Assembly: GCA_022712915.1 (NCBI GenBank)
Contig: JAFLJQ010000198.1
Coordinates: 1-35,705, forward strand
Reading direction: 5' to 3'
Length of the DNA stretch: 35,705 nt
Source: Gammaproteobacteria bacterium
GTDB taxonomy: Bacteria; Pseudomonadota; Gammaproteobacteria; UBA6429; Thiohalophilaceae
Part shown: piece by piece, positions 22,032 to 28,663 of the stretch
Layout of the letters: each line of letters opens with the position of its first letter
How positions within the stretch are numbered: the stretch's first letter is position 1
Notes under the pieces: generated by a model
Databases searched by the model: none
Seen by the model: only the letters and a program-made list of their open reading frames with translations
Told to the model about the DNA's origin: nothing
Made by a program: the position numbers and the translations under genes

Positions 22032-24449
22032 ATGTCAGATAAACAGCATACCTGTTTTCATTGCGGGCTGCCTGTGCCAAAAGGTAGTCGTTATCATGTG
22101 CATATTCTGGATGAAGAGCGTGATATGTGTTGCCCTGGTTGTGAGGCTGTGGCTAAGGCCATTGTTGGGGGCGGCCTGAGTGATTTTTATAAACATCGCA
22201 CCACCAATTCGGCTACGCCACAAACAGCGGACACCGATATTCTAGATGAACTCAGTTTATATGATCGGCCTGAACTGCAACGCAGTTTTGTTCATAGCGA
22301 TGAGACAGATATAAAACAGGCTTCCTTGATTCTTGAAGGTATCGTTTGTGCTGCCTGTGTCTGGTTAAATGAACGTCATGTTGGCAGTTTGCCTGGGGTG
22401 ATCAATTTTTCTGTTAATTATGCCACCCACCGTGCCCAGCTAAAGTGGGATGATAGTCAGGTGCACCTGAGTGACGTTTTGCGCGAGATTAGCGCTATTG
22501 GTTATATTGCTCATCCCTTTGATCCTGGCCGACAGGAACAACTATATAAGAAAGAACGCGCCCAGGCCTTGAAACGTTTGGCGGTGGCTGGTTTAGGCAC
22601 CATGCAGGTGATGATGCTGGCTGTGGCCTTGTATGCCGGTGAGGCTGAGGGCATGGCCGATAACATGAAACAATTTTTCCGCTGGATGAGTTTGTTTATT
22701 ACCTTGCCGGTGATCCTTTACTCCGCGCGACCTTTTTTTACCTCAGCCCTGGGTGACCTGAGACGCAGGCGTTTGGGCATGGACGTGCCCGTGTCCCTCG
22801 CCATTGGTGGGGCCTTTGTGGCCAGTGTCTATGCCACCATGACGCATGGTGGTGAGGTCTATTTTGATTCGGTCACCATGTTTACCTTCTTTCTATTGAG
22901 TGGTCGTTTTCTGGAAATGGGTGCTCGGCAACGGGCCGGCCAGGCTGCTGAAGAACTGGTAAAATTGTTGCCCACCATGGCAACCCGTATGACGGATGAC
23001 GGTGAAGAGGTGATCCCTGTGTCGGATCTCCAGCACGGGGATCGCATTCGCGTCAGACCGGGGGATAGTATCCCTGTCGATGGCAGGGTTATGGCCGGCC
23101 AGAGTAGTGTCGATGAGTCCTTGCTCACCGGGGAGAGCCTGCCTCTTGCCAAGGGGCAGGGCGACGAGGTCACTGCCGGTACAGTGAATGTTGAAAGCCC
23201 ACTGGAAATTGCCGTCGAGAAGATCGGTGAAGAGACTGTGCTGGCGGCTATTCGCCGTTTGCTGGATCGGGCTCAGTCTGAAAAACCGGGCATTGCCCTG
23301 TTAGCCGATAAGGTGGCGGGTTATTTTGTGGGTGGTTTATTGCTGGTGGCCATCAGCGTGGGTTCGTTCTGGTATGTTGTTGATTCTGAACGGGCCTTTT
23401 GGATTGTTTTATCGGTATTGGTCGTCACTTGCCCCTGTGCATTATCATTGGCCACCCCGGCGGTTATGACCGCTGCTACCGGCAGCCTGACCCGGCTGGG
23501 GGTGCTGACCACCCGTGGTCATGCCCTTGAGACGCTTGCCCAGGCCACACACATTGTTTTTGATAAGACCGGCACCCTTACCAGTGGTCAACTCAGTTTG
23601 GCCAAAGTTCAAGTTTTAGCCGAAGTTGATGAACAGCAGTGCCTCAGTATTGCGGCTGCTCTGGAGCAAGCCTCTGAACATCCTGTCGCTAGGTTGCTTG
23701 TTGCGCAGGTTGATAAACCTTTACAAGTGAATGATTTGATCGCGGTACCGGGGCAGGGTATCGAGGGTCAGGTGGAAGGCAAGCATTATCGTATCGGCCG
23801 GACCAGCTACGCTCTTGGGGGGAGTGAGCACTCACTTGAAGTGAGTAGCCAGTATAGCCATGCCGTGCTGGCCACAGCTGAAGGTAAGCCGCTAGCTGAG
23901 TTTATATTTACGGATCAGTTACGTGTGGATGCCCGACAGAGTATTGAGTTGCTCAAGAATGCCGGACTGGATGTGACTATTCTGAGTGGTGATCAAGCGG
24001 GGGCTGTGGCACAGATCGCCACTGAATTAGGGATCGTGCATTATCAGTTCGGTTTATCCCCGGAAGGCAAGCTTGCGGCGATTAAGACCATGCAGGCTGA
24101 GGGTGCCGTCGTCGCGATGATCGGTGACGGTGTGAATGATGCTCCAGTGCTGGCTGGAGCGGAAGTCTCTGTGGCCATGGGCAGTGGAACTCAGCTGGCT
24201 CAGGCTAGCTCTGATATGGTGTTATTATCGGGCCAGCTCACCCATCTGGCCGATGCTCTCAAGGTCGCTCGCAAGGCACGCATGATTGTTCGTCAGAACC
24301 TTAGCTGGGCAATCGGGTATAATCTGGTGGCCTTACCCTTGGCCGCAAGTGGTTATATTGCTCCATGGATGGCGGCAATTGGCATGTCAGCCAGCTCGTT
24401 GTTGGTGGTACTGAATGCCCTGCGACTTAATCAGAGCGGGCGAAATTAA
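22032..24449 (+). CDS. ccoI: Copper-transporting P1B-type ATPase for cbb3 assembly
   Basis: CcoI exports copper across the inner membrane for insertion into the cbb3 oxidase. The 805-residue protein has an N-terminal Cys-rich unit (C8, C11 and CCPGC at 33-37), a heavy-metal-associated domain with C106 and C109 (VCAAC), the actuator TGES (366-369) and the metal-site CPC (467-469). The phosphorylation motif DKTGT (511-515) with D511, an SEHP motif in the nucleotide-binding domain and [10 protein letters not shown] follow. The Cys-rich N-terminus is typical for the cbb3-associated subgroup (CcoI/FixI/CopA2) and argues against a detoxifying CopA. ccoS follows 25 bases later. Confidence 0.96.
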
Positions 24450-24474
24450 CCTTTAAATTGAGGAGTTCGGATCC

Positions 24475-24666
24475 TTGGAAGTCTTGTTTATGTTAATCCC
24501 TCTGGGGATCCTGCTGCTAGCCGTGGCTATTTGGGCTTTTGTTTGGGCTGTTAAATCAGGTCAGTTTGATGATATGGAAGGCCCAGCCTACCGTATTCTG
24601 ATGGATGACGATGACCCACGTATACCAGGTAAAAAGGGTAATGTGGACTTGAAGGATGACGCGTAG
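24475..24666 (+). CDS. ccoS: cbb3-type oxidase assembly protein CcoS
   Basis: CcoS is a small membrane protein needed for cofactor insertion into cbb3 oxidase. The 63-residue product has one helix (about residues 5-24) followed by the family signature SGQFDDMEGPAYRILMDDD. The start is TTG at 24475, not the ATG at 24490: AGGAG at 24461-24465 is 9 bases before the TTG, and the resulting MEVLF-LIPLG opening matches the family. A non-ATG start may be why such genes are trimmed in annotation. Confidence 0.93.
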   Translation: MEVLFMLIPLGILLLAVAIWAFVWAVKSGQFDDMEGPAYRILMDDDDPRIPGKKGNVDLKDDA

Positions 24667-24720
24667 TAAATTAACATGTACCTATATACTTTAGGTTAAT
24701 TACTTACAAAGGGTGCAGAG

Positions 24721-24822
24721 ATGAAAGATATGTTTACATTCCAGAATTTTCCCATGACCATCGTTATTGCTCTAGTTGCCTTTTCATGGTTGATCTTCCT
24801 GTCAGTAATTTTTACTGGTTAA
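24721..24822 (+). CDS. Small membrane ORF at the end of ccoGHIS
   Basis: A 33-codon ORF from ATG 24721, with AAAGGG at 24708-24713 seven bases upstream, encodes a short polar start (MKDMFTFQNFP) and one hydrophobic helix ending in FTG. It lies 54 bases after ccoS and 46 bases before a strong terminator, so it should be on the ccoGHIS transcript. Known cbb3 oxidases can carry an extra small single-helix subunit (CcoM in Pseudomonas stutzeri), but I cannot show homology. Good start signals, uniform hydrophobic codons and the position support a real gene. Confidence 0.6.
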   Translation: MKDMFTFQNFPMTIVIALVAFSWLIFLSVIFTG

Positions 24823-24868
24823 TAGCAAATCACTGTAGCCGCACTGGCGGGTATCAGAAGCAATATAA

Positions 24869-24896
24869 AAAACGGCCATTATGGCCGTTTTTTTAT
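24869..24896 (+). terminator. Terminator of the ccoGHIS unit
   Basis: AAAACGGCC (24869-24877) pairs with GGCCGTTTT (24883-24891) around a 5-base loop, and the T-run continues to 24894. It is a strong Rho-independent terminator placed after the 33-codon ORF. Confidence 0.9.
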
Positions 24897-25018
24897 GCCC
24901 CTCTATATTTGTCATCTTGCTAAAAGTCTTTCTGAATCAGCCGTTAATACGTATATGAGCGATGAATGATTGTTTGCAGACCTGCAATCAATCCGGATAT
25001 AGATATAGGACTGGCGGG

Positions 25019-26860
25019 ATGTTACATATAGCAAAAACAATTCAATATACTCTCAAGCTGGTGCTGCTCATTTTTTTATTAGGTGGCGTGCCTCAAGTGG
25101 CATGGACTGTTGAGCGCACACCGGAAGTACGTGTCCTGATCGATGTCTCGGGCAGTATGAAAAAAACGGATCCTAAAAATCTGCGTCAACCAGCATTGCG
25201 TTTATTGGTAGGGATATTACCCAAGAACTCAAAGGCCGGGGTTTGGAATTTTGCACAGTCGGCCAGCATGCAAGTCAAGCCAGGTGTGGTTACGGAGAAG
25301 TGGCGAAAATGGGCTCGGCAAAGAGCTCAACAGATTCACTCCCGGGGTTTGTATACCAATATCGAGGAAGCCCTCATTGCCGCAACGGTCGATTGGCAAA
25401 AACCGGATCATCGTAGCAAACGAAACCTGATCCTGTTGACTGACGGTGTGGTTGATGTCTCAAAAGACAAACGCAAAAATGTCGCATCCCGTGAACGTAT
25501 TCTGAAAAAAATCTTGCCACAATTGAAACAGGCCAGAGTCAAGATTCATACCATTGCCTTGTCAAAAAGCACGGATGAGGAATTATTGCGAACCCTTTCT
25601 ATGTCCACTGATGGTGGATTTGTTCAGGTTGATAGCGCTGATGATCTGGAGCGCATGTTTATGCGCCTGTTTGAAAAGACATCCGACATGGATACGGTGC
25701 CTTTGCAGGAAAATAAGTTTAAAATCGATAAAAGTATCCGGGATTTTACTGTGCTGATTTTTAGACCAATCGGCAAGAAAGATTCAACAGCCGTCGTGTC
25801 ACCATCAAAGAAACGTTTTACCTTTAAAAAACGTCCGAGCAGTATCGAATGGCATCAGGAGAAAAATTATGATCTGGTGACAGTTTCAAATCCTGATCTG
25901 GGTGAGTGGTCATTAGATGCGGCTGTTGATCCTGATAATAGAGTCATGATTGTGACAAACCTTAACCTGAAAGTGGATAGCCTGCCAAACAACTTGCTCA
26001 TGGGTGATGAACTGGTGATCCGTAGCCGTCTGTTACAGGAACATAAAACCATTACCAATAAAAAACTTTTGTCGTTGATGCATTTTTCCGTCTATCCTAA
26101 GTTGAACAAAATCAACCTGCCGTTGGTGAATCTGTTTGATAATGGTCAGGGTAAGGATTCATTTGCTGGTGATGGGGTGTTTAGTGGCACCGTCGGCCAC
26201 TTTACTAAGCCGGGTATTTATGAAGTGAACCTTATGGTCGTTAGTGACACCTTTAACCGTGAAGTTCATCATCGACTTGAGGTGCGAGGCAGCCCGGCAC
26301 GTATCGAAGTGAAAAAGAAAGAGACAGGGTTTGAAACCACAATTCATGTTGACCCTTCTATGTTGCGTAGCGAGACAGTATCAATTCAATTGAAGCTGCC
26401 TGATGGACAATCACTTATTATTCCTCAAGCGGGTGAATTGGAGTGGACAACGATTATACCTGTCACATATGAAAAGCAAGAGATCACTGCCACCCTGGTG
26501 GGCACACGTTTCAATGGTAAGGAAATGCACATAGATCTGACCCACATCCTGGGTGAAGCGGGAAATCAGGTTCTAAAGGTCAAGTTACCAGAAGATATCG
26601 TGAAAAATTCAGCTACTGCCGTAATAGATAAGAAGGTGGATAAAAATCAACACCAGGTTATGGATGAACATGGTAAGAGCGATGAAAAAACAGACAATAA
26701 AAACAATGATGGACTTGATTGGGTAAATGTAGGGGGAGTGTTTGTCATTGTAAATGTATTGGTTCTTATATTAATTGTGATAATCGCCATTATTATCAAA
26801 AAAAGGCGCGCCAAAAAGGGAGTGAGTAACGAAGCAGATGAAGTGGATATTGAATTATGA
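25019..26860 (+). CDS. Exported VWA-domain membrane protein
   Basis: The 613-residue protein starts with a signal sequence (hydrophobic at about residues 11-28) and a von Willebrand factor A domain right after it. The metal-binding MIDAS motif is DVSGS (D42, S44, S46), and further MIDAS-like elements (SRGLYTNIEEAL, LLTDGVVD) lie downstream. A long beta-rich part follows, then an Asn/Lys/Asp-rich linker and one membrane helix (about 562-588) with a basic tail. It is thus anchored at its C-terminus with the VWA domain in the periplasm. I use ATG 25019, which has AGGA at 25007-25010 and gives a clean signal; an ATG at 24962 would add 19 polar residues. It overlaps the next gene by 4 bases. Function unknown; VWA domains usually bind proteins. 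Confidence 0.85.
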   Translation: MLHIAKTIQYTLKLVLLIFLLGGVPQVAWTVERTPEVRVLIDVSGSMKKTDPKNLRQPALRLLVGILPKNSKAGVWNFAQSASMQVKPGVVTEKWRKWARQRAQQIHSRGLYTNIEEALIAATVDWQKPDHRSKRNLILLTDGVVDVSKDKRKNVASRERILKKILPQLKQARVKIHTIALSKSTDEELLRTLSMSTDGGFVQVDSADDLERMFMRLFEKTSDMDTVPLQENKFKIDKSIRDFTVLIFRPIGKKDSTAVVSPSKKRFTFKKRPSSIEWHQEKNYDLVTVSNPDLGEWSLDAAVDPDNRVMIVTNLNLKVDSLPNNLLMGDELVIRSRLLQEHKTITNKKLLSLMHFSVYPKLNKINLPLVNLFDNGQGKDSFAGDGVFSGTVGHFTKPGIYEVNLMVVSDTFNREVHHRLEVRGSPARIEVKKKETGFETTIHVDPSMLRSETVSIQLKLPDGQSLIIPQAGELEWTTIIPVTYEKQEITATLVGTRFNGKEMHIDLTHILGEAGNQVLKVKLPEDIVKNSATAVIDKKVDKNQHQVMDEHGKSDEKTDNKNNDGLDWVNVGGVFVIVNVLVLILIVIIAIIIKKRRAKKGVSNEADEVDIEL

Positions 26861-27852
26861 ATACAATAATGGACAAGGTACTCGGTTATATTCAGCATAT
26901 TCAAGAAAGGGTAATACACCTCTTTGATGGCGTCATGCAGCAACTTGTTGTTCTGGTTGGACAGGTTGGTGTGAGCAAAGGAGACTTGTTGACGGGCTTG
27001 CTGATATTTTCACTGGAGCTTTCTCTCGTATTGATTATCATCATCGGTCTGATGCGTTTCTTGCATGCACGTAAGAAACGCAAGGATGTTTCGTTTGCCA
27101 AGGAATTAAAGGTAAAAATAGAAGAATATTTACCGGGCCGTGAACAAAAACTCAAGGCTATTATTGCTGATATGGTGCCTCAGGATGAAGCTTGGGCAGC
27201 TAAAAGTGCAGAGGAGGCAATCAGCTATGAAAAAGGGTTGTATAGTCGGATATTGAAGATCATCCTGCGTAAAGATATGGATGGTGCCATGGGCGTAAGT
27301 AATGACGTGGAGCGGCTGGGCGATAGTTATCATCGTATTGTCACTCACCTGAGCGAAGCGACCGTAGGTGATGTCGAGGGCAGTGGTGGAGGGTCGAATA
27401 GTGCCGATGCAGAAAAAATCTCTGAATTAAAATCCATTGTTGCTAAATTACGTAAAGAAAAACAACAGTTGCAGGATGAGCTTGAGGCTAGCATCAGCTC
27501 AATGGATAATATTGTCAAAGAATATTCGCGGATCTACTCTGAGGCACCAAACTCAGGCGGTTCGACAGAGATCATGGAAAAAGAGATTGCCATGTTGCGT
27601 GAAAAAGTAGGTATTCACCTTGGAGAGGATAAGGATAAGGATACAGATACAGATACAGATACAGATACAGATACAGATACAGATACAGATACAGATACAG
27701 ATACAGATACAGATACAGATACAGGGGATTCCCCTGAGCCAGTAGGTGATGGCAAAACCCAGGATATAGGTGCTGAGGTACCTGATGTTGATATAGAAAA
27801 AAATGAAGAGCTGAAGGAGTTACGTGAAAAAACAGGTATAGAAAAACAATAA
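26857..27852 (+). CDS. Membrane coiled-coil protein with Asp-Thr repeat tract
   Basis: Unrecognised 331-residue protein. It has an amphipathic N-terminal 40 residues, one membrane helix (about 45-68) followed by a basic stop (HARKKRKD), and a helical domain (about 80-165). A Gly/Ser-rich linker and a coiled coil (about 183-225) come next. After a second helix, residues 262-289 are 14 Asp-Thr pairs encoded by perfect GATACA hexamers, and the tail is acidic. The start overlaps the VWA gene as ATGA, so the two are made together and may form a complex in which this protein carries the cytoplasmic part; the topology is inferred. The repeat keeps frame when it changes length. Confidence 0.8.
   Translation: MNTIMDKVLGYIQHIQERVIHLFDGVMQQLVVLVGQVGVSKGDLLTGLLIFSLELSLVLIIIIGLMRFLHARKKRKDVSFAKELKVKIEEYLPGREQKLKAIIADMVPQDEAWAAKSAEEAISYEKGLYSRILKIILRKDMDGAMGVSNDVERLGDSYHRIVTHLSEATVGDVEGSGGGSNSADAEKISELKSIVAKLRKEKQQLQDELEASISSMDNIVKEYSRIYSEAPNSGGSTEIMEKEIAMLREKVGIHLGEDKDKDTDTDTDTDTDTDTDTDTDTDTDTDTDTGDSPEPVGDGKTQDIGAEVPDVDIEKNEELKELREKTGIEKQ
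27640..27723 (+). repeat. GATACA hexamer microsatellite, 14 copies
   Basis: Fourteen uninterrupted GATACA units (84 bases) are preceded by two GATAAG variants (27628-27639). They lie inside the preceding CDS and encode (Asp-Thr)14. Each unit is two codons, so slippage changes protein length without a frameshift. The opposite strand shows long artefactual open frames of Ser-Val and Tyr-Leu repeats here. Confidence 0.97.
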
Positions 27853-27921
27853 TTATGAGACCAATCTTTGTCATAATTTAATCTGAATTTATAAAATAAT
27901 ACCGAATTAATCTTAATTATA

Positions 27922-27939
27922 GCCAATCGCCTGATTGGC
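27922..27939 (+). terminator. Hairpin after the VWA/coiled-coil pair
   Basis: GCCAATC and GATTGGC form a perfect 7-bp stem with a 4-base loop, 70 bases after the gene end. No clean T-tract follows, so termination is uncertain. Confidence 0.4.
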
Positions 27940-27975
27940 GAGTAATATGCTATTTTGTAAAAAAAGGAGACATCG

Positions 27976-28338
27976 GTGTTTAAAAAAATATTACTTGTCA
28001 ATATTATATTTTTGACTGCTTGCTCAACTCAAATGGTAAAAGAGGAAAAATACATCTCAACCGGGTCGTTCAGGGATGATGCCTATAAAATATGTATGAA
28101 CAGCAAAAAATACAAACAAGAAATTCAAGAAAGCAGAAAATTGAACTGTCAAAAAGATGCGCAGACCTTTATCACTATAGCAAAAAGTAATTTTCGTGAA
28201 TACAAGGCAGATGAACATAATTATCGTCTGTGTCGTTCAAAATTCTCTAACATTCAGGTCTCAGACAAATGTTTCAAAGAACAGCAGGAAAAATATTACC
28301 GCAGGGAATTGAATGGTTATAAGGCGGCATTGAATTGA
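27976..28338 (+). CDS. Small unrecognised lipoprotein
   Basis: A 120-residue protein that starts with GTG at 27976, with AAGGAGA at 27964-27970. The first 16 residues are a lipoprotein signal with lipobox LTAC and Cys16. The mature part is Lys- and Tyr-rich and has four cysteines (in KICMN, LNCQK, RLCRS and DKCFK), which could form two disulfides in the periplasm. No family is recognised. It follows the VWA/coiled-coil pair after 123 bases and may belong with it, but a hairpin lies between. Confidence 0.7.
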   Translation: MFKKILLVNIIFLTACSTQMVKEEKYISTGSFRDDAYKICMNSKKYKQEIQESRKLNCQKDAQTFITIAKSNFREYKADEHNYRLCRSKFSNIQVSDKCFKEQQEKYYRRELNGYKAALN

Positions 28339-28663
28339 ACAGATAGTTCGTCCGCTAGTTCGATTTTCGTACAAGCCTGTCAGGATTTTTAGCTTATCCA
28401 TGTCAGCCCGCCAATTTTGGCGGCATCTAAAATGTTTGTTCAACTATTCAAAGAAGCAAAGGGTCGTATATAGATATGCTGTGATCAGGATGTTATTGGG
28501 CTATCAAATAAACTGGAATTCTTGATTGAGATAGACGAGTATCTACTAGTGTTTTCCCGTTCCTGACGGGTGGATGAGAATGAAAAACCTCTCAGTGAAG
28601 AGCTGAAGCAATATCTCTTTTTACCCGCACCGATGTTTCATCGGTCTCTATTAATTCAGCTTG
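28339..28663. other. Gene-free gap with small hairpins
   Basis: No supportable ORF. CCGCC (28408-28412) pairs with GGCGG (28419-28423) and, allowing AA/TT, forms a 7-bp perfect stem that may end the lipoprotein transcript; no strong T-tract follows. Near 28556-28570 a CCCGT...ACGGG stem is present. Confidence 0.4.

Follow-up and report, generated by a model that had tools for sequence, protein, structure and literature searches.

Coding hexanucleotide SSRs have been described in Haemophilus influenzae, where those of four genomes are reported to be either conserved or changed in sequence, with unchanged length and no phase variation (PMC2651432). A related case is (CCG)n in the conserved gene Rv0050/ponA1 of Mycobacterium tuberculosis, an in-frame microsatellite whose length alleles are attributed to slippage (PMC3176237). 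For prokaryotes, one paper describes reports on repeat units of 6-9 bases as rare (PMC4692102), and another credits E. coli K12 with just three hexanucleotide repeats (PMC7015867).

The window analysed here is a whole contig of 35,705 nucleotides (C46) from a draft genome (G000; 4,236,486 bases, 274 contigs), and it carries 14 GATACA units inside a conserved gene. Like the H. influenzae repeats, the array has a six-base unit within an ORF that alters the amino-acid sequence without phase variation; unlike these 14 copies in one genome, the H. influenzae hexamers are short, with a threshold of three units (PMC2651432). With (CCG)n of ponA1 it shares the in-frame position in a conserved gene, but the mycobacterial unit has three bases and its variation was measured across strains (PMC3176237), whereas ours is read from a single genome. 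A literature search on GATACA repeats in bacteria gave no title about such an array among the matches listed. Our preferred reading, to which we assign a probability of about 0.8, is that the array is a tolerated product of slippage, a coding microsatellite in a putatively disordered acidic linker with little or no effect. By itself it is ordinary and of little significance; it does illustrate clearly how even a conserved gene can hold a perfect in-frame repeat that is not necessarily an adaptation.

The array and its reading frame

TRF, run on the whole window, reported positions 27640-27724 with period 6, 14.2 copies, 100% matches and 0% indels, and a separate scan agreed; this confirms the fourteen perfect GATACA hexamers that the initial annotation had placed at 27640-27723 (forward strand), with one further G. 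The remaining TRF rows are two period-11 arrays of about two copies each, leaving this as the sole strong array of the window. Its period-6 run measures 85 bases, whereas the longest such run in 20 copies of the window shuffled at the mononucleotide level was 12-15 bases.

The array lies in frame within the ORF at 26857-27852 and encodes (Asp-Thr)14, residues 262-289 of a 331-residue protein, so that the two-codon unit does preserve the frame as annotated. All 14 Asp codons are GAT and all 14 Thr codons ACA. In 21 genes of the window GAT makes up 0.81 of the Asp codons and ACA 0.20 of the Thr codons; if codons were drawn independently at these rates, such uniformity would be expected roughly once in 10^11. 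The uniform codons therefore indicate expansion at the DNA level, and together with the 100% matches they bear out the annotated view of a slippage-type event, slippage being the probable process. The expansion would be either recent or kept pure through repeated copy change. Immediately 5′ of the array, two GATAAG units (27628-27639, forward strand) encode (Asp-Lys)2, and the repeat scan also listed AGGATA x3 at 27626-27643; the GATAAG units are perhaps a diverged part of the GATACA repeat.

With perfect six-base units inside an ORF and a unit divisible by three, the array is a coding in-frame hexanucleotide SSR. Assignment as a phase-variable (contingency) locus was rejected, since six-base steps leave the frame unchanged and the array is far inside the ORF. 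Treated as single-stranded DNA the array showed no sign of a hairpin (minimum free energy 0). Scans of 24400-28400 gave 13 promoter-like sites (9.9 expected, sd 3.1) and one terminator-like site (3.3 expected, sd 1.9), none of either kind tied to the array.

The 14-unit copy number is taken from one assembly, and short reads could have produced a false array or a wrong count. A draft in 274 contigs leaves room for this, as do the lengths of the long hexamer arrays found here, which span 73-85 bases, and a hexamer array in a relative (G022) that extends to its contig end, as if longer ones broke assemblies. However, the GATACA array has unique flanks, and the single intact ORF around it can be aligned with orthologues to either side of the array. 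We consider an artefact very improbable, the real doubt being limited to copy number.

Host protein and acidic linker

The host protein (26857-27852, forward strand) is composed, on the evidence of the ORF, the alignment and a structure model, of an N-terminal helix, one predicted membrane helix, a helical/coiled-coil region, an acidic linker and a short C-terminal motif, which supports its annotation as a membrane/coiled-coil protein. The membrane helix, read by eye from the translation, covers about residues 44-67 (26986-27057) and is followed by a basic stretch. An AlphaFold2 model of moderate quality (12 aligned sequences, mean pLDDT 63) has helices up to residue 251, pLDDT below 50 at residues 252-312 (27610-27792) and a short helix at 317-326. 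The entire Asp-Thr array falls in this low-confidence region, predicted to be disordered, and is thus placed in a linker between the coiled-coil part and the C-terminal motif. It is not the protein end implied by the annotated ‘tail’: 42 residues follow, including the short helix and the motif VPDVDIE (27778-27798), which is VPDL/IPDL-like in many orthologues and in which D310 is nearly invariant among 12 sequences. Near the C-terminus, within the predicted helix, is LREKTGI (27820-27840), and on the other side of the array is the similar LREKVGI (27595-27615).

Searches of Pfam and NCBIfam gave no family above its cut-off for the host protein. Weak matches to SseC (0.012), a ZapG-like family (0.018) and TafF (0.0023) were far below cut-off and were set aside as coiled-coil or low-complexity noise. 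Fold comparison with the PDB gave no match at E <= 0.001; the best, at E 0.94, were long-helix filaments (CdvB2, CHMP1B), also treated as noise. A sequence profile against the PDB gave 13 weak matches up to E 1, the best (0.00087) being an uncharacterized protein; these too were set aside.

By the positive-inside rule, basic residues flank the cytoplasmic side of a membrane helix. The basic residues after the single predicted membrane helix therefore suggest that the Asp-Thr tail is probably cytoplasmic. This bears on the proposal, made in the initial annotation, that the tract binds calcium, or more broadly that it is a calcium-binding or adhesive Asp-rich repeat like the Ser-Asp surface proteins. 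The Ser-Asp repeats of ClfB and the Sdr proteins are secreted, wall-anchored stalks in which, as here, Asp alternates with a small hydroxyl residue, and residues 260-288 do match ClfB, SdrC and SdrD weakly in NCBIfam (E 0.002-0.01). These matches are far below cut-off and look like low complexity; at 13-16 bits against cut-offs of 999-2500, membership of the ClfB/Sdr adhesins was rejected. There is also no wall anchor in the translation, and unlike the stalks the array lies in a linker that is probably cytoplasmic, judging from the basic stretch, so that the likeness is limited to low complexity. Calcium binding or adhesion is in our view extremely improbable. The other annotated suggestion, a spacer, fits best, given the position of the array between the helical part and the conserved C-terminal motif.

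The host gene was matched in 30 of the 58 genomes searched, its own included, and so in 29 of 57 others. Not one of these 29 orthologues contains as many as two consecutive Asp-Thr pairs; this count included loci L017, L024, L029 and L034, the 4 of 30 that are omitted from our alignment, three of them for doubtful ORF starts. A spurious minus-strand ORF for L026 was discarded. Tails were compared for 26 sequences, own included, aligned after Leu247. The own tail has 84 residues, or 56 without the array, of which 30.4% are Asp or Glu; the 25 others range from 21 to 167 residues with a median of 30.4% Asp/Glu, and all 25 are net negative. Since the tail minus the array matches the orthologue median, we read the array as an insertion into an older linker: as judged from these aligned sequences, the acidic linker is old and variable in length, and the Asp-Thr array is new in it. 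The nearest orthologue (L010; 73% identity), on a contig titled Chromatiales bacterium Ww186 that is identical to a contig of genome G002, has a different acidic linker written in mixed codons. The check proposed with the annotation, whether relatives keep an acidic tract with other codons, was thus positive, the stretch being kept with both residues and codons changed.

Gene neighbourhood and linker length

Directly upstream of the host gene, with a 4-base (ATGA) overlap, is a gene for a VWA domain protein (24962-26860, forward strand; from the ORF and a family search) similar to TIGR03503 (145 bits, E 2.8e-42, positions 2-373 of 374). The score misses the family cut-off of 305.6 bits, and we treat the protein as related to TIGR03503 and, by that cut-off, no member. 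Such a VWA/TIGR03503-like gene lies directly upstream on the same strand in 30/30 loci, its match being weak (E 2e-4) in L020, which is cut by a contig end. The overlap with the host gene is exactly 4 bases in 17 of the 30, with starts as chosen here. No paper was found in the literature under the term TIGR03503. At positions 24962-27852 of the window, a VWA membrane protein and a coiled-coil membrane protein are encoded by a conserved gene pair, often with a 4-base overlap.

The order FixH-like, copper-ATPase-like, VWA, host gene was the same in 8/8 loci (eight of the 11 named loci); the first two names are presumed from the sequences, as is the cbb3-oxidase assembly-like character of the genes adjoining the pair. 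A small gene at 27976-28338, presumably for a lipoprotein-like product, was found, among 29 loci with 1.5-kb flanks, only in two genomes of the same genus. Between the copper-ATPase-like and VWA genes is a terminator-like hairpin of 12 pairs (24867-24893).

The conservation of this pair (30/30 loci) is one of three observations that favour a role in length tuning, in which the number of copies would determine how far the linker between coiled coil and C-terminal motif reaches, or how charged it is, and would thereby modulate how active the VWA/coiled-coil pair is; the others are that the array sits between two conserved parts and that LREKVGI and LREKTGI flank it, a similarity equalled in 0 of 1000 shuffles in the own protein and 10 of 1000 in L010. 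The same similarity is not above chance singly in L011-L014 (964, 180, 330 and 811 of 1000 shuffles, respectively), and the likeness, which would make a spacer of the array between a pair of similar helices, is only suggestive. Tuning also has to accommodate two same-genus orthologue tails of 62 and 42 residues, 22 and 42 shorter than the own 84, and hexamer arrays of similar length outside long ORFs. With the array in 0/29 orthologues, and with similarly long hexamer arrays of the same genome lacking a long ORF, the ‘tuning mechanism’ of the initial annotation loses ground, and we rate it as unlikely.

Under the preferred reading of tolerated slippage, slipped-strand mispairing would have expanded a short seed, perhaps the adjoining GATAAG units, within the acidic, putatively disordered linker of this conserved membrane protein, the gene being coupled to its VWA-domain neighbour. 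Asp-Thr pairs would then be gained or lost in frame as the copy number changes, and the array would at most lengthen the tether to the C-terminal VPDVDIE/LREKTGI part. Tolerance of slippage would follow from a unit length divisible by three and from a site predicted to be disordered, and the array could persist with little or no effect because linker length already differs widely between species.

Similar arrays in this genome and its relatives

The reading of tolerated slippage rests on the orthologues, on arrays outside long ORFs in the own genome and on parallel arrays in unrelated proteins. A search of the whole own genome for GA at every sixth position gave 39 overlapping sites against 20 for the control, some of whose sites may stem from these very arrays, shifted in register; sites fell on contigs C30, C35, C46, C60, C73, C115 and C183. 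Besides the window's own array, three long pure ones were among them. An (AGGATG)13.3 array on C60 (L107:10956-11035) encodes (Asp-Glu)13, residues 305-330 of a 341-residue GDSL-like protein. Of the others, (GACATT)12.2 on C115 (L153:7631-7703) is intergenic, past the 3′ end of a gene we take to be FKBP/SlyD-like, and (GAGGTT)12.5 begins 110 bases into its contig, with no ORF over 53 residues covering it. A census of perfect arrays of at least 24 bases in 94 own-genome stretches (1,103,521 bases) found 14, five of them hexamers; the stretches were chosen by contig number, three long contigs were extended for length, and about 1.19 of 4.24 million bases were covered. The genome holds a modest set of hexamer arrays of similar length, inside and outside genes. 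The (Asp-Glu)13 run ends eleven residues before the C-terminus, and the intergenic (GACATT)12.2 array is pure and falls little short of the coding ones in length.

The exact GATACA unit is rare, while this kind of array is not. GATACA x4 was found in 2 of 369 genomes of the class, own included, against 1/369 for the control; in the second genome the array is on the opposite strand of a glycosyltransferase-like gene and is read as Val-Ser. A codon-degenerate (Asp-Thr)5 was found in 2/40 genomes of the family and its control likewise in 2/40; besides the own genome, the match is a ScpB-like protein whose acidic tail has five Asp-Thr pairs. The pattern (Asp-x)7 was found in 14/40 family genomes, against 6/40 when reversed. 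The (Asp-x)10 DNA pattern matched in 22 genomes of the class out of 151, against 27 of 151 when it was read backwards, which gives no sign of an excess of Asp-coding arrays. At least nine of these 22 genomes, the own one among them, show a pure six-base array, and the one match whose coding was checked is an (Asp-Thr)9 within a PcnB-like protein. The names GDSL, ScpB and PcnB are our presumption from the sequences. Since the reversed pattern is as frequent as (Asp-x)10, arrays of six-base period are common in the class whatever their unit, and the reversed-pattern controls point to a general mutational origin.

One point against tolerance is that both long coding arrays known in the genome encode an acidic alternation, for which selection for acidic tails could be responsible. 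A more elaborate proposal, that the lineage carries a set of hypermutable hexamer arrays of about 12-14 copies, some in acidic tails of unrelated proteins, which jointly dial the length of disordered linkers up or down in frame and are not on/off switches, we consider decidedly unlikely. Should the arrays vary within populations, they would be handy strain markers.

Short loops are the best substrates of MutS repair, and loops of six bases mostly evade it. A MutS was found above its cut-off (1171.6 bits) in the own genome; being intact, its loss is not the cause of the array.

In four relatives (20 stretches, 398,000 bases), seven perfect arrays of at least 20 bases were found, none of them a hexamer: six have heptamer units and one an octamer unit, and all seven lie in G020. 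Pattern search found longer hexamer arrays in three more relatives (G001, G022 and G028). In the own genome, contig C30 starts in a compound array (L090:1-141) of TCCTCA hexamers and TCAATCA-type heptamers; a longer repeat may have interrupted the assembly there. The same-family genome G020 has four heptamer arrays of the TCTGCCA/TGCCAAC type within 7 kb of its contig C3 (L209:11344-17901), with up to 9.3 copies.
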